64,000 bases of DNA from Pectinatus haikarae (GTDB lineage: Bacteria > Bacillota > Negativicutes > Selenomonadales > Selenomonadaceae). How positions within the stretch are numbered: position 1 is the first letter of the stretch; each line of letters starts with the position of its first letter. Shown here in pieces: positions 7,505-58,341 of the stretch. The translations under genes were made by a program, and so were the position numbers. Under the pieces are notes generated by a model. The model did no database searches. It saw only the letters and a program-made list of their open reading frames with translations, and was not told the origin of the DNA. Location of the stretch: positions 1-64,000 of the forward strand of contig NZ_WIQM01000004.1 in NCBI RefSeq assembly GCF_015732185.1, written 5' to 3'.

Positions 7505-7568
7505 TATCATTCACTCCTGTCATTATAAAATAAGTAAAAAATATATAATATAAAGCTTGGTTTATCAT

Positions 7569-7615
7569 AAATACAGACTGCCTGCAAAAGTAATTATTTG
7601 CGGGCAGTCTGTATT
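7569..7615. terminator. terminator after nfnB
   Basis: Roughly 20-bp stem, aaatacagactgcctgcaaa against its complement (one G-U), with a 7-8 nt loop, flanked by A/T-rich sequence. It lies 3' of nfnB and upstream of the exonuclease gene. Confidence 0.75.
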
Positions 7616-7633
7616 TTACAGCCGGTTATAAAT

Positions 7634-9034: not shown

Positions 9035-9035
9035 A

Positions 9036-10958: not shown

Positions 10959-11022
10959 AAAATAGATGATTGTTCAATTGAAAACATTTCAAAATTTTCA
11001 CCATTTTGAGGAGAGATTATAT

Positions 11023-11796: not shown

Positions 11797-11802
11797 GCAA
11801 CG

Positions 11803-21530: not shown

Positions 21531-23438
21531 CTATTTTTCATCAACGTATCTGGCAATGATATCTGCGGCATGATGCAGTTCCTGTTCAGTATGTGTTGCC
21601 ATAATAGCCGCTCGCAATAGTGCCTTTCCTTTTTTTACAGTCGGGTAGCGGATTGCCAGTATAAAAATATTATGTTCAAAAAGTTTTTGCGCTATTTGCA
21701 TACTATGCTTTTCATCACCGATATTGATAGGAACAATAGCTGAATCAGAATGAGAATAAATACCGTTCTTTTTGAGGCAGTCACAAAAGTATTGAACGTT
21801 ATTCTGCAATTGTTTCACATGCTGCGGTTCAGCCGCCAGGATTCTTAAGGCTTCATCAGCAGCGGCAATTACTGCCGGTGATAAACTGGTAGAAAAAATA
21901 AAACTGCGGGACTTGTTGCACAGTTCATCGATCAAAAGACGGCTGCCGCATACATAACCGCCTTCGCTGCCGAGTGCTTTTGACATTGTTCCCATTATAA
22001 TATCAGGCTGTGCCGTAAGTCCAAAATATTCACAAATACCATGTCCTGTTTTTCCTATAACACCGGTGGAATGAGCTTCATCTACCATGCACAGCAAATG
22101 ATTTTTTTTTGCTGTTTCTAAGATATCCGGCAGAAAAGCAATATCGCCGTCCATGCTGAATACTGCATCTGTGACGATCAGCCCCCTGGAGCAAGGTGTT
22201 TTTCTTATTTTATCGGCTAGATCAGTCATATCATTATGCCGGTATATAACCGTTCGGGCACGGCTGAGACGGCAGCCGTCAATGATACTGGCATGATTAT
22301 ATTCATCACTGAAAATAACACTGTTTTTATCACAAAGTGCAGTAATGATTCCCACATTTGCCATATACCCGGTATTGTACAGCAGGGCAGCTTCCGTGTT
22401 TTTGTAATTGGCAATATTTTTTTCCAGAACTGTATGAAGCGGCAAAGTGCCTGTAAGCAGACGTGAACCTCCTGAACCCGTGCCAAATTGTTCCGTGGCC
22501 TTTTGGGCAGCTCTTTTGGTACGAGGATCATTTGAGAGATTTAAATAGTTGTTTGAAGCTAACATAAGAAGGTCGCGGCCATTACTGTATACATGTGAGC
22601 ATTGAGCGGAATGCATTTCTTTCATTTCACGATAAATGAAACTTTCTTTGCGTTCTTGTAAATCATCGCGCACAAATTGCCAGGGATCTGCTTCCTTGAT
22701 CTTTTTTGCCGGGGCTGATGGTACGCTGCGGACTAAGACGTGCTGTTTTTCAAGGTAATCTATACATTCATATTTATCTCCGCTGCGTCCGCGGTAAAGA
22801 AATATACGTCCGCCGTACGGGCAGGCATCTTTTTTTAGCTTTGTTATGCGTACATAGCCAAATTTTTTTGAAGCAATATATCCCGTCACATAATCAGGAT
22901 CATCTGATATGCATATTTCCGCAATAATATTAGGGGCATTTGCTACCTTACTGGCGAGTATAACAGCTTCCTGAAAATGATTTTTGCAGCAGCCGTTATC
23001 CGTCAGTGCTGTATGTTCCGCATCCATATAAGTAGCACGAATGCCGCGATCAAGATTTGGTTCAAGACGTTCCAGTGTGTCAGCATTAAGCAGCATGGCA
23101 CCCCGCATAGCATAAGTTTCCTTAAATTTTTTTATAATTGATGAACTGTTTCTGAGTCCCAGTTTTTTTAGATATTCCAGAAGAATATTTTGTCCTTGCG
23201 CCGGTGAGTCTACATCGATAGAGGATATGGGCAATGCGTCAATATATTCTATCTTTTGGGCATCTACCGTTTCTATTTTGATATTTATAAGATCGGGTTG
23301 CCCTTTTGTGTGGTGGAGTGCTCTTTGCACCAAGGCCATTATATTTGTATCAAGTTCTTTTTCATTTAATATTTTTTCTGCACCGGAAATATGTTCAGCT
23401 GATTTACTGGCTCTCATTTTTAAACTGTACAGAGGCAT
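21531..23438 (-). CDS. bifunctional 6-carboxyhexanoate-CoA ligase / 8-amino-7-oxononanoate synthase
   Basis: 635 aa fusion. Residues about 1-250 are BioW (LYSLKMRASKSAEHISGAEK start; RGIRATYMD; NHFQEAVILASKVANAP), which makes pimeloyl-CoA from pimelate. Residues about 260-635 are BioF, a PLP enzyme condensing pimeloyl-CoA with alanine: GTGSGGSRLLTGT, DEAHSTGVIG and the PLP lysine in GTMSKALGSEGG (about K486). Both halves look complete. aaggaaggtg lies 7 bases before the start. A BirA-like operator and promoter are upstream. bioA, bioD and bioB are not in the window. Confidence 0.93.
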   Translation of the reverse strand: MPLYSLKMRASKSAEHISGAEKILNEKELDTNIMALVQRALHHTKGQPDLINIKIETVDAQKIEYIDALPISSIDVDSPAQGQNILLEYLKKLGLRNSSSIIKKFKETYAMRGAMLLNADTLERLEPNLDRGIRATYMDAEHTALTDNGCCKNHFQEAVILASKVANAPNIIAEICISDDPDYVTGYIASKKFGYVRITKLKKDACPYGGRIFLYRGRSGDKYECIDYLEKQHVLVRSVPSAPAKKIKEADPWQFVRDDLQERKESFIYREMKEMHSAQCSHVYSNGRDLLMLASNNYLNLSNDPRTKRAAQKATEQFGTGSGGSRLLTGTLPLHTVLEKNIANYKNTEAALLYNTGYMANVGIITALCDKNSVIFSDEYNHASIIDGCRLSRARTVIYRHNDMTDLADKIRKTPCSRGLIVTDAVFSMDGDIAFLPDILETAKKNHLLCMVDEAHSTGVIGKTGHGICEYFGLTAQPDIIMGTMSKALGSEGGYVCGSRLLIDELCNKSRSFIFSTSLSPAVIAAADEALRILAAEPQHVKQLQNNVQYFCDCLKKNGIYSHSDSAIVPINIGDEKHSMQIAQKLFEHNIFILAIRYPTVKKGKALLRAAIMATHTEQELHHAADIIARYVDEK

Positions 23439-23546: not shown

Positions 23547-23577
23547 ATGTCAACTTATTTTTATAATTAGTTAACGT
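23547..23577 (-). promoter_or_regulatory. BirA-like biotin operator with embedded -35 box
   Basis: On the minus strand: ACGTTAAC-N15-GTTGACAT, matching the known Firmicute BirA operator TTGTTAAC-N15-GTTAACAA at 6 of 8 positions in each half. The right half contains TTGACA, a perfect -35 box; TACTCT follows 17 bases later as a weak -10. The same layout recurs before bioY. Confidence 0.65.
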
Positions 23578-31427: not shown

Positions 31428-31637
31428 ATGAAGGTAATACCGTCCTCAGCTTTTCTCAAAGAATTTACCGTATATGCAGAGCAGGCTGTCGATGAAAATG
31501 AAGTACTTATTATTCAGCGGGCAAACGGTAAAAATTTAGTGTTGATGTCGATGGACAAATATAATGAATATAATAGAGAACTTTTTTTATTGAAAAAAAA
31601 GGATGAAGCTGATGGCTCTGAAAAAAGTGAAAAATGA
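31428..31637 (+). CDS. Phd/YefM-like antitoxin protein
   Basis: 69 aa from the ATG at 31428, which follows caggag. The sequence MKVIPSSAFLKEF..AEQAV...EVLIIQRANGKNLVLMSMDKYNEY has the Phd/YefM N-terminal fold (beta strand, helix, then VLMS..Y). A toxin (YoeB, Doc, RelE) should follow but does not; a CsoR-like gene overlaps its end by 26 bases. Possibly an orphan antitoxin used as a regulator. Confidence 0.65.
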   Translation: MKVIPSSAFLKEFTVYAEQAVDENEVLIIQRANGKNLVLMSMDKYNEYNRELFLLKKKDEADGSEKSEK

Positions 31638-31992
31638 AGAAAATGGCATTGAAATCGATCTGCGTGAAGATGATTATGCTGAACTGCACGCAGATGAAAA
31701 TGCCGTACATCACGCTCATGCGCATACTCATAAGCACACGCAGACACATGCTGTATTAAATCGTATGGCACGTATTATCGGTCATATGACGGCTGTCCGC
31801 CGTATGGTCGAAAGTGAACGTGACTGCAGCGATGTTTTGATTCAGCTGGCAGCGATTAATGCTGCCGTAACAAATGTTTCCAAGCTGATTCTGAAGGATC
31901 ATATGGAGCACTGCATAGTTGATGCGGCTAAAACAAATGATAATGAGACGATTGAAAAACTAAAGACCGCCATAGACAAATTTATAAAGTGA
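31612..31992 (+). CDS. CsoR/RcnR family metal-sensing repressor
   Basis: 126 aa, ATG at 31612 with aagg 9 bases upstream. The core HAVLNRMARIIGHMTAVRRMVESERDCSDVLIQLAAI...LKDHMEHC is the all-helical CsoR fold. The metal residues are Cys in RDCSD, then HxxxC in DHMEHC, the Cys-His-Cys set of Cu(I)-sensing CsoR. An N-terminal His-rich stretch (HHAHAHTHKHTQTHA) is an addition that could bind Ni, Co or Zn. Likely controls the corA-containing transcript or a distant efflux gene. Confidence 0.85.
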   Translation: MALKKVKNEENGIEIDLREDDYAELHADENAVHHAHAHTHKHTQTHAVLNRMARIIGHMTAVRRMVESERDCSDVLIQLAAINAAVTNVSKLILKDHMEHCIVDAAKTNDNETIEKLKTAIDKFIK

Positions 31993-32064: not shown

Positions 32065-32118
32065 TGGTAAACTGATTGATACTGAAAAGTTGACTATTTT
32101 TGCATAATAATTTATACT
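32065..32118 (+). promoter_or_regulatory. bioY promoter with BirA-like operator
   Basis: TGGTAAAC (32065-32072), 16 bases, GTTGACTA (32089-32096): each half matches the BirA operator TTGTTAAC/GTTAACAA at 6 of 8. The -35 box TTGACT (32090-32095) lies in the right half, and TATACT (32113-32118) follows at 17 bases. A palindrome TTGACAGTCAA is at 32120-32130. The known operator spacer is 15, so 16 is a small mismatch. Confidence 0.62.
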
Positions 32119-32250
32119 TTTGACAGTCAATAACCAAATAAATTAAAAAAACTGTTTTGTCCTGCTAAGATTATAAAAAGCAGCATATACGGCAGTGATA
32201 AAGCGGCAGATAATTTAACCGTTATATAAAATAATACAGGAGGGGATATT

Positions 32251-32802
32251 TTGACAAAAGGTACAGCATCATTACAAGGTTTTGTTTATTCCGCACTTTT
32301 TGCAGCACTTATTATTGTTCTTGGTTTCATTTCGATTCCCATAGGACCGGTCCCTATATCAGGAATCAGTCTGGGGGTAATGCTTGCGGCAAGTGTACTG
32401 CCTCCGAAAAGAGCGGCATATAGTGTGCTGATAGTGATCCTGCTCGGTGCAGCAGGACTACCGGTATTTTCCGGTTTTGCCGGAGGGATGGGGGTTTTAT
32501 TGGGACCGCGCGGCGGATATTATGCCGGTTTTCTGGTCGGAGCATATATAATTTCTTTTTGTATCGGCAGCAGCAATAATTGGGCACGTTTATTGACGGC
32601 AAACATCATCGGCGGTATGCTTGTAGTATACGCAATAGCGATTCCCTGGCTGATATTTGTTACACATCTGGAAGTCGGGCAGGCTTTTTTTGCGGGAGCA
32701 CTTCCTTTTCTTCCTGGAGATTTACTGAAGGCCTTGGTGACGACGGTATTGGCAAGAACTTTGCGCAGGAATATTCCGGGGGCAGTGAGAAGGGATGGCT
32801 GA
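32251..32802 (+). CDS. bioY: biotin transporter BioY (S component)
   Basis: 183 aa, TTG start preceded by aggagggg. Six hydrophobic segments; family motifs IPIGPVPISGISLGVMLAA, GLPVFSGFAGGMGVLLGPRGGYYAGF and PFLPGDLLKALV. It imports biotin with or without an ECF energising module; no ecfA/ecfT genes are adjacent. The stop overlaps the thiolase-like gene by 8 bases. The operator upstream and bioW-bioF elsewhere in the window support biotin regulation. Confidence 0.93.
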   Translation: MTKGTASLQGFVYSALFAALIIVLGFISIPIGPVPISGISLGVMLAASVLPPKRAAYSVLIVILLGAAGLPVFSGFAGGMGVLLGPRGGYYAGFLVGAYIISFCIGSSNNWARLLTANIIGGMLVVYAIAIPWLIFVTHLEVGQAFFAGALPFLPGDLLKALVTTVLARTLRRNIPGAVRRDG

Positions 32803-33970
32803 GACTTATCTGATAGGAGGCTTACGCACACCAATTGGTAAAAAAAATGGCTGTTTGAAAAGCTTTCTTCCGGAAAAATTAGCTGCGGCTGTCCTCAATG
32901 GCATTTTGGCAAAATATTCGCTTACACCGGAAAGTATAGATGCTGTTGTTGCAGGTAATGTGGTCGGTCCCGGGGGAAATATTGCCAGAGTTTGTGTTTT
33001 GGAAGCAGGATGGCCGTATTCAGTACCGGCATTTACTGTTGACGCGCAGTGCGGTTCCGGGCTTACGTCGATTGATATGGGAGCGGCTATGATAGAGTCA
33101 GGCCGCGCACAGCTTGTTATTGCGGGTGGCGCAGAAAGTAATTCTTTGGCTCCCAGCAGGCGGCTCCATGCTAATGATCCTCGCTATAAGGGGCCTGATT
33201 TTTATTATGAACAAGCGCCTTTTTCACCGGAGTGGGTGGGAAACCCTGACATTGGCAGTGCGGCAGAAACGATGGCGGCGGATTTTGCGGTCTCGCGTTC
33301 GGAAATGGATGAATTTGCCCTGAATAGTCATAAAAAGGCTTCAGCCGCACAAAAAGACGGCTTTTTATCAGACATTATCCTGCCTTTGAATTCAGAAGGA
33401 AAGTGCATTGATAAAGATGAAGGACCAAAGCAAAACATGAACTTGAAATTGCTTGCCCGCTTGAAAAGTGCTTTTGTTAAAAACGGCAGTATTACTGCCG
33501 GTAATTCCTGTCTCAAGCATGATGGAGCTGCCTTTGTATTATTGGCTTCGGCTGAAGCTGCGGCCGAATATGGACTTACGGTGCAAGCCGTTGTTTCTCC
33601 GGCAGTCACGCTGGGCTGTGATCCCAATATTTTTCCGCTGGGGCCTGTTTATGCGATGAGAAAAATGCTGCAGATGCAGAAATTGTCACTGCAAGACGAC
33701 ATAGATATAGTGGAAATAAATGAAGCTTTCGCTGTTCAAATGATAGCGTGCTGCCGTCAGCTTGATTTGTCTTTTGAAAAACTTAACAGCTTGGGAGGAG
33801 CTATTGCTTTTGGCCATCCATATGGGGCTTCCGGTGCAATAATTCTGCTGCATCTGCTGCAAGCTTTAAAAAAAAGGCGTGGAAAAATGGGAATTGCATC
33901 CATCGGTGCTGTGGGCGGGCTTTCAACAGCAATACTTCTGCAAAGGATAAATGTAAATGCTTATAACTGA
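32795..33970 (+). CDS. thiolase-like protein (YhfS type) with altered catalytic site
   Basis: 391 aa, full thiolase length. The acyl-accepting Cys is present in DAQCGSGL (about C89) and the His in GHPYGASGA. The usual second cysteine, in CxGGGxG near the C-terminus, is replaced: SIGAVGGLS has Ser there. Biosynthetic thiolases need that Cys, so the chemistry may be altered. B. subtilis has a BirA-controlled bioY-like, ligase and thiolase cluster (yhfU-yhfT-yhfS), and this looks like its counterpart. Overlaps the next gene by 14 bases. Confidence 0.82.
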   Translation: MAETYLIGGLRTPIGKKNGCLKSFLPEKLAAAVLNGILAKYSLTPESIDAVVAGNVVGPGGNIARVCVLEAGWPYSVPAFTVDAQCGSGLTSIDMGAAMIESGRAQLVIAGGAESNSLAPSRRLHANDPRYKGPDFYYEQAPFSPEWVGNPDIGSAAETMAADFAVSRSEMDEFALNSHKKASAAQKDGFLSDIILPLNSEGKCIDKDEGPKQNMNLKLLARLKSAFVKNGSITAGNSCLKHDGAAFVLLASAEAAAEYGLTVQAVVSPAVTLGCDPNIFPLGPVYAMRKMLQMQKLSLQDDIDIVEINEAFAVQMIACCRQLDLSFEKLNSLGGAIAFGHPYGASGAIILLHLLQALKKRRGKMGIASIGAVGGLSTAILLQRINVNAYN

Positions 33971-35282
33971 TCTGCTCAAATGTCAGCCGAAGGATAAAAT
34001 TTGTCTCAGTTTTAATGGTACGGAAATCACATATGGATTTTTGGAAAACCAAAGTTCGATGATGGCAGATTCTGCAGATTTTATAAAAAAAGGTGAAAAG
34101 ATTTTTCTTCAGGAAAGTGATCCCATACGGCAGCTCCTGTGTTTTTTTGCAATCATCAAGGCAGGCGGCATATGTGTAATGGCCAATAGCAGGATACCGG
34201 CAAAACTGGCAGAACGATTGATGAAAGAACACGGGATAACCAAGAAAGCCGCATTGGAGGACTTCAAAAATAAGGCTGTTCATCAATGTCCTGGTTTAAG
34301 GCCGGAAGACATATTTCTTGGAGCGATGAGCTCTGGATCATCTACTGGCATTCCCCAAATAGTTTTGCGTGATCACAAAAGCTGGATGGCAGCATTTCCA
34401 TGGCAAAGTAAATTGTTTAATATCGGAGCACGGGATGTTCTTTATCTTGTCGGCGAGATGGCCTATACTGCTAATTTGAATGCATGTATACACGCTTTTT
34501 TTGCCGGTGCTTCAGTCATAGTTGCAAGAAACAGGCTGCCTCAAACATGGCTAAGGGAAATGCAGATGTATTCTGTAAGTGCAGTCTTTATGGTCCCTGC
34601 ACATTATAGTATCCTTTTAAAGGCTGTAAAACTTCCTGATATCGGTGTAACATCGTTGGTAACAGGAGGCGCAAAAATAGACAGAAAAACAGTTGTTCAG
34701 CTGCATGCGTATTTTCCTGCGGCTTCTATCACGGAGTACTATGGTGCGAGCGAGCTCGGCCATGTGAGTTATGCGGATATGCACGATCTGCTTGAAAGGC
34801 CGTACAGCACAGGGAAGCTGTTTCCCGGAGTCAGCGCTCAGATAGTGGATGGTGAGGTCTGGGTTGAAAGTCCTTACCTGATTCCGTCGAGAAGGCCTAA
34901 GGCAACTGCAGGAGATCTCGGTTCTATCAGCGGCGATGGATATCTTACTCTTTACGGCAGGAAAAGTGGTACTGTAAATATAGGCGGTGTGAAGGTACAG
35001 CCTGAACAAATAGAGTTTTATCTTAAAGAACATCCTCAGGTGGAAGATGCAGCTGTATTTGCTTTTCCCGATAAGCTGCGGGGAGAGAAATTAGCTGCGG
35101 CAATCGTATCGAAAACAGATGATATAAAAATAAAAGAAATTTTTCATTTTTGCCGGCAGAATGCTGGGTATTCTCCACAAAAAATAATTTTTTTGCAAAA
35201 AATTCCTTTAAATGCAAATGGCAAAGTCGATAAAATTGTATTGCAAAAAATAGTTATGGAGTCTTTTGATGAAAACAATTAA
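33957..35282 (+). CDS. AMP-forming acyl-CoA synthetase-like protein (YhfT type)
   Basis: 441 aa, shorter than most acyl-CoA synthetases (about 500-560). The ANL motifs are present: SSGSSTGIPQ (usual final Lys is Gln), YGASELGH, GDLGSISGDGYLTLYGRKSGTVNIGG, and the C-terminal catalytic Lys in NGKVDK. It should adenylate a carboxylate and pass it to CoA or a carrier. Substrate unknown; a pimelate-related or fatty acid is suggested by the operon. Overlaps the next gene by 14 bases (start at 35269). Confidence 0.82.
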   Translation: MLITDLLKCQPKDKICLSFNGTEITYGFLENQSSMMADSADFIKKGEKIFLQESDPIRQLLCFFAIIKAGGICVMANSRIPAKLAERLMKEHGITKKAALEDFKNKAVHQCPGLRPEDIFLGAMSSGSSTGIPQIVLRDHKSWMAAFPWQSKLFNIGARDVLYLVGEMAYTANLNACIHAFFAGASVIVARNRLPQTWLREMQMYSVSAVFMVPAHYSILLKAVKLPDIGVTSLVTGGAKIDRKTVVQLHAYFPAASITEYYGASELGHVSYADMHDLLERPYSTGKLFPGVSAQIVDGEVWVESPYLIPSRRPKATAGDLGSISGDGYLTLYGRKSGTVNIGGVKVQPEQIEFYLKEHPQVEDAAVFAFPDKLRGEKLAAAIVSKTDDIKIKEIFHFCRQNAGYSPQKIIFLQKIPLNANGKVDKIVLQKIVMESFDENN

Positions 35283-35679
35283 AGATTTTTTACCGCAGCG
35301 GGAACCATTTTTATTCGTCGATGAAATATTATCTGTTGATAATGGAGTTATCATCGGAAGTAAAAAATATGACAATGATATCATTTTTTATCAAAACTTT
35401 GGGGGAAACCTTTATGTACCGTCGATGATACTTTTGGAATCATTGATGCAATGCGGTGGTGCCGGTTCACGGATGATTGCTCCGGCGGAATCGGAGATAT
35501 TCGTTGTTACTGCTGTCCGCAAGGTCAAAATAAAAGCGCCGGTATGTATTAATGATACAATCATAATGAAGATACAGACGCTGCGTATGAGGGGAAGGTG
35601 TTTTCGGCAGAAGGGTTCAGCTTTTCTGAACGGAAAATTTGTACTAGGAGCTTCATGGCAATGCATGTCCATAAAATGA
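35269..35679 (+). CDS. FabZ-like hotdog protein lacking the catalytic histidine
   Basis: 136 aa; the ATG at 35269 has ggag 7 bases upstream (a TTG lies one codon earlier). Start FLPQREPFLFVDEI is FabZ/FabA-like. In dehydratases the active His sits in HFPG.P..PG; here the segment reads NFGGNLYVPSMILLESLMQ, with Asn for His, while the Glu is kept. It may bind rather than dehydrate acyl-ACP or acyl-CoA, or act as a thioesterase. Last gene of the bioY operon. Confidence 0.75.
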   Translation: MKTIKDFLPQREPFLFVDEILSVDNGVIIGSKKYDNDIIFYQNFGGNLYVPSMILLESLMQCGGAGSRMIAPAESEIFVVTAVRKVKIKAPVCINDTIIMKIQTLRMRGRCFRQKGSAFLNGKFVLGASWQCMSIK

Positions 35680-35734
35680 AAATACAGTCAGGCATAACCC
35701 CGTAAGAGGCTATACCGGACTGTATTTTCATTTT
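35673..35734. terminator. bidirectional terminator between bioY operon and cbiT
   Basis: Perfect 17-bp stem, aaaatgaaaatacagtc at 35673-35689 against 35718-35734, with a 28-base loop; it overlaps the ends of both convergent genes. Confidence 0.8.
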
Positions 35735-36306
35735 ACGCGGCACGTTATTATATAAACGGGATTCATTCCTATCATCATGTCGTAAGCTCCCGCCTTTCTG
35801 AGACGACTGGCCTGAATGAGAATGGATTCATATTCATACATATCGTTTTGCTTCATATAATCAAGGATAGCAGCAGTGTTTTGTACGGTGATTGCGTTGG
35901 CAACGATCCTTCCTCCCGGATTGATATGTGCGGTGATCACGTCAAGTATCTCCGAAATATTACCGCCGCTGCCGCCGATGAGAACTACATCATAATTATC
36001 TATTTTATTCATGGCATCGGGCGCAGTTCCTTCTATCACAGAAAGTCTGGCTTCGACATTAAATTTTGCAGCATTTTTCCTGATCAAGGCTGCCGCCTCT
36101 GGTTTTCTTTCTATGGCATATACATGTCCTTTTTCAGCCATCAGAGCCGCCTCGACAGAAAGCGATCCTGTACCGGCGCCTATATCAAGAACGATGCTGT
36201 CGCTGCGAATAGATGCTTTGCATAAGGTCAGGATGCGTATTTCTTCTTTTGTCATCGGCACGTTGCCGCGGATAAATAAATCATCACTGATTCCCGGTAT
36301 ATGCAT
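35728..36306 (-). CDS. cbiT: cobalt-precorrin-6B C15-methyltransferase (decarboxylating) subunit
   Basis: 192 aa, SAM-dependent class I methyltransferase: PMTKEEIRILTLCKASI, then VLDIGAGTGSLSVEAAL (SAM loop) and VVLIGGSGGNI. It methylates C15 and decarboxylates the acetate of cobalt-precorrin-6B, with CbiE methylating C5. The start overlaps the cbiE stop as TAATG; the longer frame to 36330 would run into cbiE. Confidence 0.93.
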   Translation of the reverse strand: MHIPGISDDLFIRGNVPMTKEEIRILTLCKASIRSDSIVLDIGAGTGSLSVEAALMAEKGHVYAIERKPEAAALIRKNAAKFNVEARLSVIEGTAPDAMNKIDNYDVVLIGGSGGNISEILDVITAHINPGGRIVANAITVQNTAAILDYMKQNDMYEYESILIQASRLRKAGAYDMMIGMNPVYIITCRVK

Positions 36307-36932
36307 TATCCCATCACCACCATTATGCAATGCCTTACGGCATCTCTGGCCGTGGCTTCCAAAAGGCTGACGGCGAAAATTTTTTCATCAGGGTATGAGA
36401 GATGTTCACATATGTAGGCAGGTGTGTTCTGTGGCCATCCGGCATCAAGCAGGAGCATTGCTATGCGCTGTGAATTATGTTCGTCATCCGTCAGCATTCC
36501 AACAATGCGCCCTTTTTCATAGGCAAGCGATGCATAATCGGGGAGTCTTCCGTGAAGGCTCATGAGGTCTGCGTTCTGCCAGGGAATGCCTATGCGTGAA
36601 AAGGCCATTTGCATGGAACTTATACCGGGAATGACTTCCAGCCTGGATGACGTAAATTCGTTGCGCAGCGCCGGTAATAAGGAGTAATATCCGGGATCTC
36701 CCGATACCATTACCACTACATCTTTTTCTAATGATTGTGTGCGTATAAAAGCGATTACAGCCTGTATATCTGCCGTGATCGGTGCTGTTTTCTGGCCTTC
36801 TGATGCATAGTCTGCCAATGCACGTTTTCCGCCGACTAAAACCTCAGCTTCATTGATTTTCTTTAAAGCAATCGGCAAAATATAATCTTTTGATCCGGGG
36901 CCGATACCTACTACTGTTATTTTATATTCCAA
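36306..36932 (-). CDS. cbiE: cobalt-precorrin-7 C5-methyltransferase
   Basis: 208 aa tetrapyrrole methylase; TTG start with aaggataggcg upstream. Motifs: ITVVGIGPGSKDYILPIA, VSGDPGYYSLLPAL, VIPGISSMQMAFSRIGIPWQ. CbiE and CbiT are separate here, as in most anaerobic-pathway Firmicutes. It overlaps cbiD by 16 bases. Confidence 0.92.
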   Translation of the reverse strand: MEYKITVVGIGPGSKDYILPIALKKINEAEVLVGGKRALADYASEGQKTAPITADIQAVIAFIRTQSLEKDVVVMVSGDPGYYSLLPALRNEFTSSRLEVIPGISSMQMAFSRIGIPWQNADLMSLHGRLPDYASLAYEKGRIVGMLTDDEHNSQRIAMLLLDAGWPQNTPAYICEHLSYPDEKIFAVSLLEATARDAVRHCIMVVMG

Positions 36933-38020
36933 TGTAATTTTTCGCCTATCCTTTTTGCGTTTTCATCCATTCCCAGAAGCTCGCCCTTCAGTGTAGCCAT
37001 TACTGTTCCGATTTTCAGCTTTTGAAACACATGCTGCATAGAACGGATGCTGGCACGTTCACATAAAAGCGGGTAAAGTTCTTGTTCAAGATGATATTCT
37101 TTAATTATTGTCATGGCAGCTTCAGTTGTGATACAGTTAAAAATTCTTTTTATACCCGCCTGCTCCATTCCCAAAAAGGCTGAATAAGCTGCGATTGTTT
37201 CCAGTCTGGCATCAGAAATCTTACTGTGTGTGTAAAAATTACCGGCTGATACCTTGACCAGCTTTCCTAAATGGCCGAGAAGTAAAACACCGTTCAAATT
37301 TTTGTCGGCGGCATATTCAAGCATGTGACCTATAAAGTTGCTTGTTTGTACTATGGCCTGCCGCGGCAGGCCTAAAGCTACGGCTATATTTTCACCGATT
37401 TTTCCCGGGACGAAAATCTGATCAGAAAAACCTGCGGCCAGGGCCACATCTATCTGAGGGGTGAGAGAGTTTTTAAAACCTTCTTCCGACATAGGGCGCA
37501 CCACGCCGCTTGTGCCTATCACAGAAATGCCGCCTTCTATACCAAGTATCGGATTTAATGTGCGCTTGGCCAGCTCTCTCCCGGCAGGGATGGAAATAGT
37601 AATATCGCAGCCTTGTCCTTCAGGCAGCAGCTCATGTACTACTGTTGTCATCATTCGGCGCGGTCCAGGATTTATTGAAGGCTGTCCTACCGGTACGGAA
37701 AGGCCCTCTTTTGTGACTATGCCGATACCGTCACCGGCAAAAAATTTGACGGCACTATTATTATTCAACGTCACTTTGGTGAAAACGGATACGCCGTGTG
37801 TTATGTCTGGGTCGTCGCCCGCATCTTTGATCACTTCGGCCCATATGCCGTCTTTTGAAATATTGATATATTTGATGGGGATGATTAGTTTTTCTCCGCT
37901 TAGAGCAGTCAATTCAACTTCTGTGGATATAGTTTTATTCAGCATAAACAGGAGCACCGCTTTTACGCCGGCTGCGGCGCAGGAACCGGTAGTATATCCG
38001 TTTTTCATTTCTTTTGCCAT
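36917..38020 (-). CDS. cbiD: cobalt-precorrin-5B C1-methyltransferase
   Basis: 367 aa. It begins KNGYTTGSCAAAGVKAVL, with GDDPDITHGV and GDGIGIVTKEGLSVPVGQPSINPGPR, all family hallmarks; it methylates C1 in the anaerobic route. aaggtg precedes the ATG. First gene of cbiD-cbiE-cbiT, which complements cbiF-G-H-J at 11-14 kb. cbiL, cbiC, cbiA, cbiP and the cobalt chelatase are not in the window. Confidence 0.94.
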   Translation of the reverse strand: MAKEMKNGYTTGSCAAAGVKAVLLFMLNKTISTEVELTALSGEKLIIPIKYINISKDGIWAEVIKDAGDDPDITHGVSVFTKVTLNNNSAVKFFAGDGIGIVTKEGLSVPVGQPSINPGPRRMMTTVVHELLPEGQGCDITISIPAGRELAKRTLNPILGIEGGISVIGTSGVVRPMSEEGFKNSLTPQIDVALAAGFSDQIFVPGKIGENIAVALGLPRQAIVQTSNFIGHMLEYAADKNLNGVLLLGHLGKLVKVSAGNFYTHSKISDARLETIAAYSAFLGMEQAGIKRIFNCITTEAAMTIIKEYHLEQELYPLLCERASIRSMQHVFQKLKIGTVMATLKGELLGMDENAKRIGEKLHWNIK

Positions 38021-49682: not shown

Positions 49683-50300
49683 TTACCACGTATATTCTAA
49701 TTTCACAATCGTCGCCTTGTCATCAAAATTATAATCGACACCGACGCCGAGATACTTGCCGTCTTTTGTAATTTTCTTTGCAACAGAATAACCAATTTCT
49801 TTTGGACTCGGATTATCTATCGCTTTGGGGGCGTAGCTGACTGTATGAAGGATTTTTTTATAAGCTTGAACATTGTACTGGTTCAGGCTTATTTGCGTGT
49901 CAGCGGGCAATTCTGATGTGTCTACCGTTTCAGTGGGATTTGCCGGGTCCGTCAAAATAGAAAAATCAGCATTGGCTTTTTCCTGCGCCACCTTTTCGGC
50001 TGCCGGTGCCTGCGCTGCTGTCGTGTAAACAACATATTGCGGCTGTTGCCCGGACGTGACGATATATTTTATCTGCTGTGCCGCCTCCTGCGCTTGACCA
50101 GTCGATATAGGCACCTGTGCATTATCTGCAGCAGTTTCTACGCCAGCCGGTGTTTCCGCTTGCTCCTGTGATTCGATCGTGACCGGCTGGGCCAGATGCA
50201 GATATTGATAAATGAAATATGCGCTGATGCCTAAAATAATAGCGGCCAGCGCATATAAGATGATCTTTTTGTGACTCTTTATAAAATTTATAGCTGCCAT
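49683..50300 (-). CDS. prophage envelope protein with N-terminal membrane anchor, candidate spanin
   Basis: 205 aa. Transmembrane helix at about 11-32 (IILYALAAIILGISAYFIYQYL), then an Ala/Gln/Pro-rich exported linker (about 35-120) and a small C-terminal domain ending KYLGVGVDYNFDDKATIVKLEYTW. The alternating pattern and final aromatic residue look like an outer-membrane beta strand. It is the last late gene, after endolysin, where outer-membrane disruption proteins are usual. Function inferred only. Confidence 0.5.
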   Translation of the reverse strand: MAAINFIKSHKKIILYALAAIILGISAYFIYQYLHLAQPVTIESQEQAETPAGVETAADNAQVPISTGQAQEAAQQIKYIVTSGQQPQYVVYTTAAQAPAAEKVAQEKANADFSILTDPANPTETVDTSELPADTQISLNQYNVQAYKKILHTVSYAPKAIDNPSPKEIGYSVAKKITKDGKYLGVGVDYNFDDKATIVKLEYTW

Positions 50301-50310
50301 AATGGCCTCC

Positions 50311-50691
50311 TTACATAGTCAGTCGGACCGCAATGTAAATGAGAGCTGCGATCTTGGCCGCATTAAACACGTCGTCTTTATGATCTGCCCACCAGTTCGT
50401 TACTTCCGTTTCCGCTGCCGTGACCGTTTCTGTGGTCTTGGCTGCAAGTTCCGCTTCAGCGTTTTCAATCTTCTGCTCAAGATTTTTAATTTCTTCGGCG
50501 AATAGGTCTGCACTTTTGACTTCAAGGTCAGCCTTGGCGGCTTTCATAGCTTCAATGTCGGCTTTGATTGCTGTAGTATCATCATTAACGGTCTGAGCTG
50601 GAGTGGTTTCTGCTGTTTCCTGTGTTGCTGTATCCTGTGCTGCAGCCTGATCAACGGTTGCTGTCTGTTCCTGAGTTGTAGTGTCTGCCAT
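50311..50691 (-). CDS. prophage coiled-coil protein with C-terminal membrane helix
   Basis: 126 aa. Thr/Gln/Ala-rich N-terminus, a coiled coil at about 40-95 (IKADIEAMKAAKADLEVKSADLFAEEIKNLEQKIENAEAEL is split over several heptads), and a C-terminal hydrophobic segment VFNAAKIAALIYIAVRLTM. Ten bases separate it from the 205-aa gene. Could be a tail-anchored lysis regulator, a second holin, or a partner of the candidate spanin. Confidence 0.5.
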   Translation of the reverse strand: MADTTTQEQTATVDQAAAQDTATQETAETTPAQTVNDDTTAIKADIEAMKAAKADLEVKSADLFAEEIKNLEQKIENAEAELAAKTTETVTAAETEVTNWWADHKDDVFNAAKIAALIYIAVRLTM

Positions 50692-50713
50692 ATTTAAGAC
50701 TTCCTTTCAATTT

Positions 50714-51298
50714 TCACTCATAATATTCGCTTGCATCATACGGTAAGTCATCGCTGTAACGGTCCGTATGCTGCCATATTTTCGATATGCGCTCCGGGTG
50801 CTCTGCCTTGAAACTATCCTCATGATATTCGTATTGCGCGCTCCAGATCGGCACATAATCCGGAAGACAAGTAAGGTCAATGACGTTCGTCAGCCAGTTA
50901 TACGAGCTGTACAGCCCAACATAGCCATAGCCAGCGGCATTAAGGCTCGTAATAAATGCCGTGATCGGATATACGACATTTCGCGGACCGGTCAGCATAC
51001 TGTTATCTTCTGCATCGTACCAAATACCGAGTTCTGGGTTAACGCCGTTAAGATAGGTTTTAATCCACGCGTCAACTTGCGCCGCTTCGGTTTTTGCGCT
51101 GTCAACATCAGCAGCATGGCCATAATAATAAACGCCATATTTCAGGCCATGAGCAACCGCATTATTGACGTGGGCTATAAACATTTCGTCAAGTTTTGAG
51201 CGTTCACCAATTTTTAAAATGACGCCGCCGAAGCCGGCATCGGCAATCGCTTGCCAGTTTACATTTTCCTGCCATGCGGACAGATCAATAATTTTCAT
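50714..51298 (-). CDS. prophage endolysin, glycoside hydrolase family 25 lysozyme
   Basis: 194 aa, starting MKIIDLSAWQENVNW; ggaggtaa lies 9-12 bases upstream and an ATG at 51307 is a little too close to it. GH25 residues: first Asp in IIDLSAW, DxE in WYDAEDN, and a barrel ending PIWSAQYEY...KIWQHTDRY. No signal peptide or wall-binding domain, so it needs the holin. Cuts peptidoglycan at muramic acid. Confidence 0.92.
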   Translation of the reverse strand: MKIIDLSAWQENVNWQAIADAGFGGVILKIGERSKLDEMFIAHVNNAVAHGLKYGVYYYGHAADVDSAKTEAAQVDAWIKTYLNGVNPELGIWYDAEDNSMLTGPRNVVYPITAFITSLNAAGYGYVGLYSSYNWLTNVIDLTCLPDYVPIWSAQYEYHEDSFKAEHPERISKIWQHTDRYSDDLPYDASEYYE

Positions 51299-51491
51299 AG
51301 TCAACATTTACCTCCGTTTTAAAAATTTCCCCGTTACCGCCTAAGTCAACGGTATGCCCGTCAAAAGTTGCACCAGGGAACGTGTTGATAATACTTTCGT
51401 TAGGATTATGGCTTTCTTTAAAGATCTGCTGTATTTTGTCCAGTTCATCTGCTGCGATATCTGCTCCGGCCTTAGTTACTGTTATTATCAT
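51285..51491 (-). CDS. small prophage protein, unknown
   Basis: 68 aa from the ATG at 51491, preceded by aaaggaaag; the frame extends further upstream only through the holin gene. MIITVTKAGADIAADELDKIQQIFKESHNPNESI is soluble and helical at first, strand-rich later. It overlaps the holin end by 20 bases and the endolysin start by 14. Confidence 0.55.
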   Translation of the reverse strand: MIITVTKAGADIAADELDKIQQIFKESHNPNESIINTFPGATFDGHTVDLGGNGEIFKTEVNVDYENY

Positions 51492-51732
51492 TTTTATCTT
51501 TCCTTTCATACGGTTTATCGCCGTCACTACTGTTTTTCCAGCTGTCCATGATGTATTTAACCATAGCCAATACTCCCGCACCTCCCAAGGTCGTAAAGCC
51601 ATCCCAACATGACTTTATATCAAACTTCGTCCCGTACAGAGCATTGGCAAAATAACCAACGGACCAAAACAAAAACAGGAGCATAAACGCCCCCGTTATT
51701 GCTTCAATCATATATTTTTGTATATTTTTCAA
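51472..51732 (-). CDS. probable phage holin
   Basis: 86 aa. Two hydrophobic segments (ITGAFMLLFLFWSVGYFANAL and LGGAGVLAMVKYIM) and a charged hydrophilic C-terminus (SSDGDKPYERKDKNDNNSN), the pattern of class II holins. Directly upstream of the endolysin in the transcript. Confidence 0.68.
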   Translation of the reverse strand: MKNIQKYMIEAITGAFMLLFLFWSVGYFANALYGTKFDIKSCWDGFTTLGGAGVLAMVKYIMDSWKNSSDGDKPYERKDKNDNNSN

Positions 51733-51767
51733 GCTCTCACTCCTTTCCTAGATACCGATTTTTATGA

Positions 51768-52067
51768 TCACCTCCCGACTACCCATTCGAAAATGCCAAC
51801 GATAATACTCGCAATAGTTATAGATATGCCTATTGTCCAGCGTGTACTTTCTTTATAAGCGTCCAGTTCTTTTTTGAATTCTTTTTTATGTTCATCCAGC
51901 CGATGATGCGCAGATTTAGCAGACTGCAATGCTTCGTGGGACATATCATTTATGTTTTCCATTTTTGCTCTGCAGGGGGCACAACTATCAACGAGCATAT
52001 CCAGTTTTGTTTCTATTGCTGACAACCTGCTGACTGTCTCTTTCTCAAATTCCTTTTCATTTTCCAA
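51768..52067 (-). CDS. XhlA-type hemolysin-like phage protein
   Basis: 99 aa. N-terminal coiled coil (EFEKETVSRLSAIETKLDML; HHRLDEHKKEFKKELDAYKE) and a single C-terminal helix TIGISITIASIIVGIFEWVV. XhlA acts with a holin in PBSX-type lysis; the CAPC pair could be a disulphide. Adjacent to the holin gene. Confidence 0.75.
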   Translation of the reverse strand: MENEKEFEKETVSRLSAIETKLDMLVDSCAPCRAKMENINDMSHEALQSAKSAHHRLDEHKKEFKKELDAYKESTRWTIGISITIASIIVGIFEWVVGR

Positions 52068-52153
52068 GCAATCACCACCTCATTTATTGCATAAAAATAG
52101 CCGCTCTATGGCGGCGGGGAGAACGCTGTTTTATTTTCATAATCATTTTCCTG

Positions 52154-52453
52154 TCAGGTGCTTGTTGGATTTGTTGATGTATCTGTCGTATCAGTATTTC
52201 TCTTTTTTTGAGCATCAATTATAGATTGTACTGAATCAATACATGTGTCTAAATTAGGCTGTGCGGTATAGTCGTTTATTTTATCATCCGTCACATATAC
52301 TTTTAATGTTTGGTTGTAAATAACCAAATCATTTGAAAAAGAACCGAAGGAAGGATAATCTTTAAGAAAGTTTTCTTTTGTGTCTATATAAGTATTTTTT
52401 CCGTCAGTAACAAGCACTTCATTATTTTCTAACTGAAACACCGTTTGCAGCAT
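52154..52453 (-). CDS. prophage protein, probable tail-fibre accessory
   Basis: 99 aa. Strand-rich N-terminal half (TVFQLENNEVLVTDGKNTYIDTKENF) and a Thr/Ser-rich tail. Lies 10 bases after the collar fibre, where short assembly proteins are common. Family not recognised. Confidence 0.5.
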   Translation of the reverse strand: MLQTVFQLENNEVLVTDGKNTYIDTKENFLKDYPSFGSFSNDLVIYNQTLKVYVTDDKINDYTAQPNLDTCIDSVQSIIDAQKKRNTDTTDTSTNPTST

Positions 52454-52463
52454 TCAAATCACC

Positions 52464-53282
52464 TCAATACTTGATAATATAGTTAACAACCAGATAAGGC
52501 TGCATATTATTGTGTGCGCTTCCGCTGCCATTGCTCCCAACAGAAACACTGACAGAATGTCCATGCGAATAATTAAATCCTACACTCATATTCGCGCCGT
52601 TTTTGCCTTCTGGCCCTGGGTAATTATAGCTATTAAAGCTGAATACACCGGTGGCAGTGCATCCAGTATCAAACATTGCCAGATTTAATGCACCAGTGGC
52701 TGATTGCGTATCTGTTGCTGCACTAGCACTATGATTATGAGATGCCAATTCTGCGGTCGTCAGGGCGTGTGTTTTTTCACCACCCGTGGCACCTAATGTG
52801 CTAAGCGTACTGCTTTTGCCAACACCTACCCTGTCCTGTAAATTCGGAAGGTTAAATGTTGTTGAACCGTCACCGGTACCGTATGTCGTTCCAATAACAG
52901 CGTATAAATCCGCATAAGTTGAGCGGCTTACTGCTTGCCCTTGACATAATAGATACCCCACCGGAGCTGCAGCCCCAGCAAACTGATTTATTACACCGAT
53001 GGGAACTATGTTGGCCGGTTTTCTTAAATCTTTTATTGTCCAAGTTACTGTGCCATCTACCACCGTTTGTCCGGCAGCCGGCCATTCCGGTTCGCTGCTG
53101 CCCGTTGTACCCGATACAGTACATTCCGCATATAGCATGCAGTTTGCGGTCACGCTGTGACTTTTTACCGTATCGCCGACGGCTGGTATTGCCCCCGGTT
53201 CCCAAAAATTGAGTGTTGCCAGCAGAGCAGTTAAATTACTGATGCCCTGCTCCGGTCCCATACCAATATTAAAATCTATCAA
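52464..53282 (-). CDS. phage tail collar/fibre protein
   Basis: 272 aa. The middle holds a Phage_Collar domain (PIGVINQFAGAAAPVGYLLCQGQAVSRSTYADLYAVIGTTYG; FNLPNLQDRV), followed by a His/Ser-rich segment (ELASHNHSA; SHGHSVSVSVGSNGSGSAHNNMQPYLVVNYII) as in receptor-binding tips such as those with metal-threaded needles. Likely binds the cell surface. Follows the tip protein J-like gene directly. Confidence 0.83.
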   Translation of the reverse strand: MIDFNIGMGPEQGISNLTALLATLNFWEPGAIPAVGDTVKSHSVTANCMLYAECTVSGTTGSSEPEWPAAGQTVVDGTVTWTIKDLRKPANIVPIGVINQFAGAAAPVGYLLCQGQAVSRSTYADLYAVIGTTYGTGDGSTTFNLPNLQDRVGVGKSSTLSTLGATGGEKTHALTTAELASHNHSASAATDTQSATGALNLAMFDTGCTATGVFSFNSYNYPGPEGKNGANMSVGFNYSHGHSVSVSVGSNGSGSAHNNMQPYLVVNYIIKY

Positions 53283-53283
53283 G

Positions 53284-56200
53284 TTAATACCCCCTTATAT
53301 CCGCTCTTATGAGCATGCCTGCCATGTTATTGCCGCTATCATCCAGTATTTCAAGATCAAATCCATCTGCGTCTAAATTTGACATACGCCAGGTGGCCTG
53401 TTTGCTGTTCAAGTCTGATGTAAATAATGCTACACTGCTTGGCACGGTAAAGAATTTCTGTTTAAAAGATATATGTTTTATGGCCGCGGGCACTTCAATA
53501 TTTTCGATGATCTCTTCGGTGTCGGGAACATCAATATCTGCTTCAGCCCCAGATATTTTTAGCTGATTTATTCCCGAAAGGGACTGTCCGGTCAGGCGTA
53601 TTTGCACATACCTGCCATAAAACTGCCTGTGTGTGGATGATATCCAGTCAGACCATGTTTTGCCATCTACACTCGTTTGGTAATCCTGTGTAATGACGAT
53701 ATCATCGCCAGCATTGCTTTTCAGTTTTATTGACATGAATGTACTTGCCAAGTATTTTACATCTATCGGTGTCCATGGGCCATTACCGAACATATCACCG
53801 AATTTTGCTAAGGTTTCGATTGTCTCGTTGCTTTTTACGTGCAGCACGCCCCATTGATCAATCCAAAAACAGGCTGTATCTACTATATTCGGGCCTAAAT
53901 CAATAATAGGTACATATGCTGTGCAAATTTTTGAAAAGCTAAGCTGTTTGAATATATCCGAGAAAAATTCCAGAGAACCTATCGGGACACTGTCGCTGAA
54001 TGCATTCAAAGCACCGAATTGATCCATATACATATTTGTTATATTCCAGTCTGCCAGATTTTCAGTCCGCTGAAATATAATGTTTTTAGTCGGCAAATTA
54101 ATCACGTTGACAGTTGCCTTTGTGGCATTTAGGGAATAATTACCGCTATTGTCGACCGCTTTAATCCAAAAAGTTTGAGTGCCTTCGTTCAGAGCTTCAA
54201 ATTTATAAGAGTTTCCGGTAAAGGTTCCAACTATTGTCGATGTCGTCCAGGTTACTCCTGTGCGCAGTTCATAATAATTTATATCCGGATCATCATTTTC
54301 TATAATTGATGCTGTCAGATATTCTCCTGATTGGATTATATACAGCTTACTTATGTTCTGCGGTGGAGCATCCTTGCCAGTGATATATACTGAAACCGTC
54401 TGACCTTTTGAAACAATGCCATCTTTTACCGTATAAACATGCACATAATAAGTTATATAGGTCTTAACATTTTCTATTATGCATTTCATGTCATTTGTCG
54501 TTTTGGCGGTCTGGTAGGATACGCCATTTTCTGATAAACCTACAACAAATTCATCTACCGACTGACCTCTTTGCAGTGACCACGACACGTTTATGTTTGA
54601 TATTGTAGTACCGTCACGCTGCATATAGGTTTCTTCGGCGGCCGAAAGGCTGTCTACTTCCGGCTGTGAATTAGGCGGCGTATAGTCAATCACCGGATAC
54701 TTAGAGTAATCAAGGCTGTCGCTATATACTGCTTCATCATACTCGACTGCCTTTATATTACACAGTTGATCACCGTCACGGCTGATATTGATAACTCTGA
54801 ACGGTTTTACCGCTTTTTCCGTTTCACCTAGGCAATACACATCATATTGCTGCGGTTTTTCGTCAGAGCTGAAAGGAACCTGAATTTCAAGCAAATTCGT
54901 TGTCGCATCCTGACTAACAATGCTTTTTTTGACTATTGTATCATCATAGCGCTGTATTATTATTTCATATGATAAAGCAGATGACAGAGTTATTTCTTTA
55001 TCAAGCTGAATAGTAGTATTATCACTTACAGCAACTATTCTGCCTGATGCTATGCCGATCTGGCTGACCGCATGATTAAATCCGATAATGTCGCCAAACT
55101 CTGATACCATGGCATTTATATCTGCGCTGAATTCAATATCCTGCAGCTGCCGTTCATTTGTTGCCAATGATCTTATTGCCTCACGCCATGCTTGTGAACG
55201 CCTTGCCACACCAAACAGCGTCAGATCGGTTGTATTATCCTGGTCAGAATCATTCCATGTCTGTGACCTTGTCAGAAACTGGGTATTTTTAAAATCATTA
55301 TCGATATCGTTATAGGTGACATTAATTTCTTTCGCGCGTTCATCAAGAGATGTAAAGCTGCCTTTCACCGATGATACAGTCGTCCTGCCTTCGCCGAAAA
55401 TCTGGCATACGGTTCCCGGTTTGTCAACAACAATACCAATATCATTGCCATGTGATAATATAGTCGCATGGCCCACGGTTGCGGCTTTTTGTGCTTGTGT
55501 AATTCTTTTTTCGGATGTATCGAAAAATGCATCGAATTCAAAGCGTTTTTCCTGTTCACCATCGTTATTTAAAATCATTTCATCAGCATAGGCAGCAGCA
55601 TCCACCCATTGGTCCCAATATTTTATCAGCCGGCTTTTATCAATGCCCTCAACGACATATTCATAGCTGCCCGTATTGATATTTTTCAGGTAGTAGCATT
55701 GATGCAGAATGTCATAGGCCGCCCAGATAGGATTTTTAGCAGATCTTTGTTCGTAAACCCCGCTATCTGGGTTAAAGACCCATACATTATTGCGTACCTG
55801 CCGCCAATTAACTGACGGTACACCGCCCGACAATTGATTTGTTGCAAGTATTCTGAGCGCAACAAGCACTTTCCCCTGCCGGCAGTATTTGCCGTTTTCA
55901 TAGCTCGTTAAAAGCGCCCAGCGCGTTATAGTGCTCGCTCTGCTTGATGTATCGCGGCTGATCATTTCGGCCCTGATTTCATATTGCGCTTCCGGCAGTC
56001 CATCTATACGAATTGACTGAGTGACAAGTGAACTCTGCGCCGCAGTAATTGACCAGGAAGCATTCCAGCTGTTCCATGCAGTTGTACCTTTTTGCCTGTA
56101 CATAAGGGCAATTGTCACGGTCGTCGATGTATAGCCGCCATCGTCATTTATTTTAAATAAGCCGCCTGACCATTCCATTGTCACTTCAAGCGATACAGCT

Positions 56201-57371: not shown

Positions 57372-57383
57372 TATTTACCCCTC

Positions 57384-57974: not shown

Positions 57975-57977
57975 TTT

Positions 57978-58337: not shown

Positions 58338-58341
58338 TTCA

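Follow-up and report, generated by a model that had tools for sequence, protein, structure and literature searches.

Operon Organization and BirA-Type Operator

The window analyzed here is a stretch of 64,000 nucleotides from contig NZ_WIQM01000004.1 of Pectinatus haikarae (genome size 3.11 Mb, in 17 contigs), and its subject is an operon of four genes on the forward strand, at 32251–35679, which overlap end to end. The first gene, bioY (32251–32802), encodes the S component of the biotin energy-coupling factor (ECF) transporter and matches PF02632 at 130.1 bits, against a cut-off of 25. It is followed by the genes of a YhfS-like thiolase-fold enzyme (32795–33970), in which PF00108 and PF02803 score 195.2 and 122.8 bits, of a YhfT-like AMP-forming acyl ligase (33957–35282; PF00501 and PF13193), and of a FabZ-like hotdog protein (35269–35679), for which the list of open reading frames (ORFs) offers an alternative TTG start one codon upstream, at 35266. 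The NCBIfam model PRK07638 is the top model for the ligase and PRK06690 the runner-up for the thiolase; these are presumably the models of YhfT and YhfS, respectively, and both matches stay under their cut-offs (155.9 of 518 bits and 333.6 of 498 bits). What is claimed below is the same kind of module as bioY-yhfT-yhfS, and not membership of these equivalog models.

A BirA-type operator of the pattern TGGTAAAC-N16-GTTGACTA lies at 32065–32096 (+) and ends 154 bases before bioY. The pattern searched, GT[ATC]AAC-N15-17-GTTGAC, occurs twice within the window; the second match, at 23549–23575 (−), stands upstream of a related gene outside the operon, a bioW-bioF fusion (21531–23438, −), which is a single open frame of 640 residues and exceeds the cut-offs of both models (bioW, 195.5 bits against 193.55; bioF, 438.2 bits against 426.45). 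The same genome holds a second BioY, adjoining bioD on another contig, and bioB also lies on another contig.

Relatives were collected by scanning one genome per species with an alignment of 20 ligases. The scan confirmed 235 of them, and the 80 best were retained as loci for the analysis; a contig scan with a single ligase sequence returned 31 pattern matches, with no relative among them. Of 75 operons of the family, namely that of the window and those of 74 of these 80 loci (six were dropped for too little upstream sequence), 46 are preceded by the operator pattern, which occurs in none of 7500 dinucleotide shuffles. Since the pattern was derived from operons of this same family, the site at the bioW-bioF fusion is its sole independent check. 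A preliminary description of the window had placed four overlapping genes behind a BirA-like operator, which the profile matches and the operator pattern bear out; as judged from this pattern, the operon would be under BirA-type control through a putative operator. Control by BirA has been established for bioY and yhfS-yhfT at the Staphylococcus aureus promoters (PMC6391492, PMC7235819), whose repression by BirA with biotin was demonstrated in an Escherichia coli reporter (PMC6391492). A review states the same control for yhfU(bioY)-yhfT-yhfS of Bacillus subtilis (PMC11089781), in line with the preliminary description.

Active Site of the Thiolase-Fold Enzyme

In classical thiolases, whose active-site residues have assigned roles and carry the numbering Cys378, Asn316, and His348, the second catalytic cysteine is the base by which acetyl-CoA is deprotonated. 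The thiolase-fold enzyme of the window retains Cys86, Asn309, and His341, while Gly371 occupies the column of the second cysteine in an alignment with seven canonical thiolases from Bacilli. This column is fixed by intermediate sequences from Bacilli, which read TMGIGGGM where the canonical enzymes read TACIGGGQ. The preliminary description had reported serine in place of this cysteine; the loss of the cysteine stands, and serine as its substitute is ruled out by the canonical and intermediate sequences, which put the true position two residues later.

The residue at this column is Ala in 48, Gly in 27, and Ser and Pro in one each of the 77 resolved thiolases (the window and 76 loci), one of 78 being cut at that point. 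It is Gly in all 23 thiolases from Bacilli that adjoin a ligase, so that the second cysteine is kept in none of 100 resolved ligase-linked enzymes, and it is Cys in the seven comparison thiolases. The latter were picked because no strong ligase match lay near them; six have none at all, and L172 has a weak one (22 bits). The nucleophilic cysteine is kept in 78 of 78 enzymes, and the Asn of the NEAF motif and the His of the GHP motif in 77 of 77 resolved ones. Loss of the second catalytic cysteine is thus, by these alignments, a trait of the ligase-linked family. A Cys-His-Asn set is used by decarboxylating ketoacyl synthases, and because Cys, Asn, and His remain where the second Cys is missing, the pattern points to a malonyl-dependent two-carbon extension.

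Acyl Ligase

The window ligase comprises 441 residues and carries the AMP-binding and C-terminal domains of AMP-forming (ANL) ligases. Near its C terminus stands Lys423, a residue shared by all 20 aligned ligases. The P-loop-like motif contains Gln134, at a position where the family alignment has Lys in 18 of 20 sequences and Arg in one. The Gln-for-Lys exchange of the preliminary description is therefore real in the window, and the altered active site that it implied is not a shared feature, as 18 of 20 relatives keep the lysine. An inactive ligase was considered and rejected: with Lys423 invariant and Gln134 the sole oddity, the enzyme looks competent from its sequence.

FabZ-Like Hotdog Protein

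The FabZ-like protein scores 57.9–62 bits with the NCBIfam fabZ models, all under their cut-offs, and has no Pfam match. Its AlphaFold2 model (predicted local distance difference test, pLDDT, 89) has FabZ structures as its best Foldseek matches, 6n3p (template modeling score, TM, 0.88) and 3d6x. The protein shares with FabZ, the 3-hydroxyacyl-acyl carrier protein (ACP) dehydratase, the hotdog fold and the helix glutamate (Glu58), but differs in lacking the catalytic histidine. Glu58 and the QCGGAG motif, which in the window begins with Gln62 and Cys63, are invariant in both FabZ-like alignments made. The preliminary description had assigned Asn in place of the dehydratase His. The loss of His holds, whereas the substitution depends on the alignment: Asn44 lies opposite the FabZ histidine in the pairwise alignment, and a multiple alignment with four proper FabZ proteins gives the window protein a deletion at this column.

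Across 20 family rows (17 distinct sequences), the column holds Tyr in eight, a gap in seven (the window included), Thr in two, and Gln, Leu, and His in one each. The single His among the 17 belongs to L036, where the following FPG is altered. Proper FabZ proteins from the same genomes have the histidine in six of six cases, and all eight genomes searched, that of the window included, encode a separate FabZ over the cut-off at another place. Hotdog thioesterases with a single Glu are known. The loss of the catalytic His suggests hydrolysis or mere acyl binding, while the exchange of FabZ-like and MaoC-type proteins between loci, described below, suggests dehydration; from the sequences, a thioesterase that releases the product appears as likely as a dehydratase. 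The role of this homologue is the least certain part of the pathway proposed below.

Conservation and Partner Genes

Neighbor counts over the 80 loci refer to the stretch read around each ligase. The thiolase accompanies the ligase in 78 of the 80 loci, no more than 150 bases away in 68 of these 78, and bioY is found in 60 of 80. Negativicutes, Clostridia, and Bacilli all contain the thiolase-ligase pair, in most cases together with bioY. A hotdog gene is added in 51 of 80 loci, of FabZ-like type in 12 and of MaoC-like type in 39, and never both at one locus. Because the two hotdog types alternate between loci, the added gene of the window is, on these gene contents, one of several ways in which the operon can have a hotdog enzyme.

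The MaoC-like gene sits between thiolase and ligase in L103, L106, L109, L121, and L123. Its product of about 185 residues has D114, N116, and H119 as the sole invariant residues among 29 aligned members, and this D-x-N-x-x-H is the motif of (R)-specific hydratases. A profile of the family matches the (R)-enoyl-CoA hydratase 1iq6 (2.9e-7), and the structural model (pLDDT 91) matches hydratase 2 of the multifunctional enzyme MFE-2, 1s9c (1.3e-6, TM 0.55). The MaoC-like partner thus resembles the MaoC/(R)-hydratase 2 family in its motif and in a model nearest to the double-hotdog hydratase 2, but differs in its length and in that PF01575, at E ≤ 0.1, matches 13 of the 29 members and misses 16; an NCBIfam search with one member (L103) gave no match.

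The nearest locus, with 70% ligase identity in the best segment, belongs to P. cerevisiiphilus (L063:6300–9722), where the thiolase and hotdog genes are open, the ligase is broken, and bioY is by eye an apparent remnant. P. frisingensis (L096, G002) carries a distant form of the operon, its ligase about 30% identical and a MaoC-like gene standing in place of the FabZ-like one, so that operon types differ within one genus. When genes of biotin synthesis were compared with the 80 loci and 20 stretches from relatives, the sole match was bioB in L128. At this locus of a Clostridiaceae metagenome-assembled genome (MAG; 5059–9245), bioY is divergent and bioB lies directly 5′ of thiolase and ligase. 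A Spirochaetaceae MAG has the order thiolase-ligase-bioY (L120:6853–9876) and a MAG titled Jiulongibacter has the pair without bioY (L122:1894–4301); judged by these two occurrences, horizontal spread is possible.

Reductase, Dehydratase, and ECF Genes in Bacilli

Bacilli were searched with PRK06690 in 200 genomes of the class of Trichococcus ilyis; the best 30 loci were read, 14 of them more widely. The order bioY-ligase-thiolase occurs in L177, L180, and L186, and is continued by a FAS1_DH-like and a MaoC gene in L178 and L179. A short-chain dehydrogenase/reductase (SDR) gene follows bioY-thiolase-ligase in L175 and L176, and ligase-thiolase in L174. In L181–L183, the order is ligase-thiolase-small ORF-MaoC-like, with no bioY among the genes listed; the MaoC likeness of the last ORF comes from a purpose-built profile (39.6–47.4 bits), and a Pfam search with two of these ORFs found no MaoC match.

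The fullest set is that of L184, where a BirA box (TTGTTAAC-N17-GTTTACAA) lies 5′ of a run of genes on a single strand. The run begins with bioY, ligase, thiolase, and a frame like the FAS1_DH-matching one of L150, and continues with MaoC (PF01575), a FabG-like SDR, and ECF-type A, A′, and T genes. Among the ECF genes, A alone exceeds its NCBIfam cut-off and T matches PF02361 at 133 bits; their products would serve BioY. L173 repeats this run from the ligase through the two ABC ATPases, with BioY elsewhere in the genome. The gene 5′ of its ligase is, by eye, transporter-like and not BioY. In L174, an adenine-deaminase-like gene at 11743–13461 (−) (TIGR01178, 190.7 bits, under cut-off) is placed between the ECF genes and the ligase.

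The fatty-acid-like route raised in the preliminary description gains support from these loci, as reductase and dehydratase genes accompany the pair in relatives. The link to biotin has emerged stronger than was claimed, given the operator, BioY, and one genome of Bacilli in which bioY and ECF genes share one run. Taken from gene content, ligase, condensing enzyme, ketoreductase, and dehydratase would form an elongation cycle short of an enoyl reductase only. Cells that make fatty acids possess an enoyl reductase.

Co-Occurrence with Biotin Synthesis Genes

Genes of biotin synthesis were called in 74 carrier genomes, made up of 24 from an initial set of 60 relatives, plus 50 of the 80 locus genomes chosen for isolates and large contigs; carriers were found via the ligase, and the sample is not random. 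NCBIfam cut-offs were applied, with four sub-cut-off matches included in the bioW counts (G009, G094, G096, and G099); BioF was counted at 417 bits or more, together with a partial match in G094, and G086, G087, and G088 (348–390 bits) were left out. Full sets of bioW, F, D, and B are present in 27 carriers, bioB alone in 19, bioD and bioB in 15, none of the four in eight at the thresholds used, and other mixtures in five. Biotin auxotrophs are known to include salvage types with bioB only and with bioA, bioD, and bioB (PMC6593275). BioF is found in 32 of 74 carriers, 30 of which also match bioW. Conversely, 44 carriers have no bioW match and 42 no full-strength BioF; 39 have no bioF match even at E ≤ 1e-50, and none of these 39 has bioW. 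Several of the eight genomes without these genes are MAGs of unstated completeness.

Among the 60 relatives, carriers show no enrichment in bioW, which is present in 13 of 24 of them and in 15 of 36 non-carriers (p = 0.43), and no association is seen for bioB (21 of 24 against 30 of 36) or bioD (17 of 24 against 24 of 36). bioC exceeds its cut-off in nine of the 60, five of them carriers. Co-occurrence with bioW and bioF, such as a gene of the pimelate pathway should show, is not observed. In three carriers that are 99% complete and have no bioB over the cut-off (G008, G024, and G030), the sole BioY is that of the operon itself. The module is not dependent on bioW or bioF.

The FabZ-like type goes with bioW in 12 of 14 genomes, compared with eight of 26 for the MaoC type (p = 0.002), a comparison among related genomes in which at least six of the MaoC type (G020, G025, G028, G030, G036, and G106), all without bioW, are missing.

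Relation to Known Systems

The closest described systems are bioY(yhfU)-yhfT-yhfS of B. subtilis and yhfS-yhfT of S. aureus, which share with the window BirA-type control and a ligase and thiolase standing with, or co-regulated with, bioY. The window differs from them in the order bioY-thiolase-ligase, in its 441-residue ligase, and in the added FabZ-like gene. B. subtilis YhfT reportedly turns 3-hydroxy fatty acids into acyl-AMP without going on to the CoA ester, and feeds surfactin synthesis (PMC10988940).

The loci L181–L183 have the order published for vraA, vraB, vraC, and the gene that follows in the staphylococcal vraA-vraB-vraC-vraP cluster, a likeness that rests on gene order and not on names. 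The literature found treats the vra genes as part of fatty acid or cell-wall metabolism and not of biotin metabolism; vraA, vraB, and vraC of S. aureus are classed with the genes of fatty acid metabolism (PMC11730646). A stable complex of VraC and VraP has been described (PMC10620731), as would be expected of split hotdog halves, which pairs of this type probably are.

BioZ, the pimeloyl-ACP synthase of alpha-proteobacteria, is of the ketoacyl-ACP synthase III (KAS III) type (PMC7645780). Its decarboxylating two-carbon extension of an acyl-CoA in the service of biotin is the chemistry proposed here for the module. BioZ, however, belongs to de novo synthesis as a 3-ketoacyl-ACP synthase, while the window enzyme has a thiolase fold and its family occurs in bioF-less genomes as well; the window thiolase does not fall within KAS III, ACP_syn_III scoring just 14.7 bits, under its cut-off.

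Clostridium autoethanogenum supplied with bioYDA grows on pimelate, no BioW or BioF being known there, and its route from pimelate to biotin is left open there (PMC6505512). C. ljungdahlii, its close kin, carries bioY-thiolase-ligase (L086). Open-access literature yielded no biotin-related function for the yhfT-yhfS pair, which is no proof of absence; nothing was found there on bisnorbiotin together with bacteria and beta-oxidation, or on work joining biotin, thiolase, acyl-CoA synthetase, and a bioY operon. No link to the module emerged from a paper on streptavidin and acidomycin (PMC13336041).

Proposed Mechanism and Alternative Explanations

With a probability that falls somewhat short of even, the operon represents, on sequence grounds, one version of a chain-building module that is controlled by BirA and linked to the import of biotin, whatever its substrate. 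In the direction we infer, low biotin would free the operator of BirA, so that BioY and the enzymes are made, and BioY would import biotin and related acids. The ligase would adenylate a carboxylic acid and load it onto CoA, onto a carrier protein, or onto the thiolase-fold enzyme. The acyl group, carried on Cys86 of the thiolase-fold enzyme, would then undergo a decarboxylating Claisen condensation with a malonyl thioester, in the manner of a ketoacyl synthase. A FabG-type enzyme, which would be a housekeeping one in the window genome and is encoded next to the pair in some Bacilli, would reduce the ketone; the hotdog enzyme would catalyze dehydration or release of the product; and a housekeeping enoyl reductase would complete the cycle. 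The net product would be the acid lengthened by two carbons.

Since the pair also occurs in genomes that lack the tested biotin synthesis genes, a bisnorbiotin-like vitamer would be the likeliest substrate. Bisnorbiotin is a product of biotin beta-oxidation. Biotin or dethiobiotin shortened by two side-chain carbons fits prototrophs, bioB-only and bio-gene-free genomes, and biotin import alike. It is therefore suggested, tentatively and with the balance against it, that the module serves vitamer salvage, in which shortened biotin (bisnorbiotin and its kin) would be activated, condensed with malonyl units, and reduced back to biotin under the control of BirA; that a form of the same module acts in staphylococci under the vra names is an equally tentative part of this proposal.

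Several observations weigh against it. Neither hotdog type was found within the stretch read in 29 of the 80 loci, and the catalytic His needed for dehydration is absent from 16 of the 17 distinct FabZ-like sequences. The chemistry reported for YhfT fits fatty acids better than biotin vitamers, by analogy with that enzyme. The full bioW, F, D, and B set found in 27 of 74 carriers is a further difficulty. Absence calls are fallible, moreover, as seen in C. ljungdahlii, where bioB is reported (PMC6505512) and the best match reaches 113.5 bits against a cut-off of 225, and in G087 and G088, two of the eight carriers counted as free of bio genes, which have sub-threshold bioF-like matches. Finally, P. 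cerevisiiphilus, whose operon has a broken ligase and an apparently decayed bioY, has no bioW or bioF match, the outcome expected of a pimelate role; two BioY matches lie elsewhere in its genome.

The distribution of the module is also compatible with a role in fatty acid metabolism that spares biotin, since such a role is indifferent to the presence of bio genes. Under biotin shortage, acetyl-CoA carboxylase would falter, and the module would activate, elongate, or remodel scavenged or recycled fatty acids and so protect the membrane. This explanation, unlikely though it seems, draws on the reported activity of YhfT on 3-hydroxy fatty acids (PMC10988940), the sole biochemical result in the literature found, on the perturbation of fatty acid synthesis and membrane fluidity in S. 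aureus by biotin limitation (PMC12642757), and on the filing of vraA, vraB, and vraC noted above (PMC11730646). A thiolase without the second Cys, however, should not condense acetyl-CoA, a decarboxylating enzyme needs the malonyl-CoA that biotin shortage depletes, and the single run of L184 with bioY and ECF genes is left unexplained. Supply of pimelate is less probable again, whether as a pimeloyl thioester or pimelate for BioW and BioF (for example from glutarate plus two carbons, or through release of pimelate by the hotdog protein) or with the ligase replacing BioW. The decay in P. cerevisiiphilus is matched here by BioW in 30 of the 32 BioF-bearing carriers, by the tie between the FabZ-like type and bioW (from the incomplete list of related genomes mentioned), and by the growth of C. 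autoethanogenum with bioYDA on pimelate (PMC6505512), whose relative C. ljungdahlii carries the operon. The survey of carriers nevertheless demoted an exclusive pimelate role: the 39 carriers without a bioF match all lack bioW too, eight have none of the four genes at these thresholds, and carriers show no excess of bioW. The route to pimelate for BioW that the preliminary description had offered as one option is thus not sustained by a family in which 44 of 74 carriers have no bioW.

Two further explanations are held to be very improbable. Ligase, MaoC-type hydratase, SDR, and thiolase fold together resemble a peroxisome-like beta-oxidation set, which could trim a longer imported acid, such as azelate to pimelate or a longer biotin analogue; beta-oxidation was demoted because no acyl-CoA dehydrogenase was recognised in a by-eye reading of the neighbors listed and because the cysteine for thiolysis is missing in all 100 resolved thiolases. 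Alternatively, the module might perform acyl transfer only, passing acyl-AMP to a carrier protein, lipid, or peptide without forming a carbon-carbon bond, with the hotdog protein as thioesterase. The reported halt of YhfT at acyl-AMP (PMC10988940) and a hotdog protein that has Glu58 and, in 16 of 17 distinct sequences, no His would suit such a role. The FabG-like and MaoC-like genes of relatives point instead to carbon-chain chemistry, and the retention of Asn309 and His341 in every resolved thiolase also speaks against acyl transfer alone.

Surroundings of the Operon

Directly 5′ of the operon, at 31603–31992 (+), lies the gene of a small protein with a His-rich stretch, by eye like a metal-sensing repressor of the CsoR/FrmR type; a similar small His-rich protein is encoded at the same place in three Pectinatus relatives (L031, L032, and L033). 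Genes that by eye resemble those of cobalamin synthesis (cbi) flank the region at 10966–14350 (+) and 35728–38020 (−). A run of apparent phage structural genes, again judged by eye, occupies 49683–63958 (−) and includes ORFs of 1250 and 1265 residues.

Implications

The BirA-regulated yhfT-yhfS pair itself is already known; what is new is that the whole is recognized as a probable module for chain elongation whose hotdog genes are interchangeable, together with the independence of this module from de novo biotin synthesis and, in one genome, the single run with bioY and ECF genes. The pair is widespread and has so far had no biotin-related function in the literature found, so that an annotation puzzle becomes a question answerable by feeding and enzyme assays. 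The residue patterns also caution against annotating "thiolases" that lack the second Cys as acetyl-CoA acetyltransferases. If shortened biotin is the substrate, the module would constitute a new vitamin salvage route in Firmicutes of gut, rumen, and soil; if the substrate is fatty acids, it would reveal how cells spare biotin. Either way, a chemical role is suggested for the staphylococcal VraC-VraP complex.

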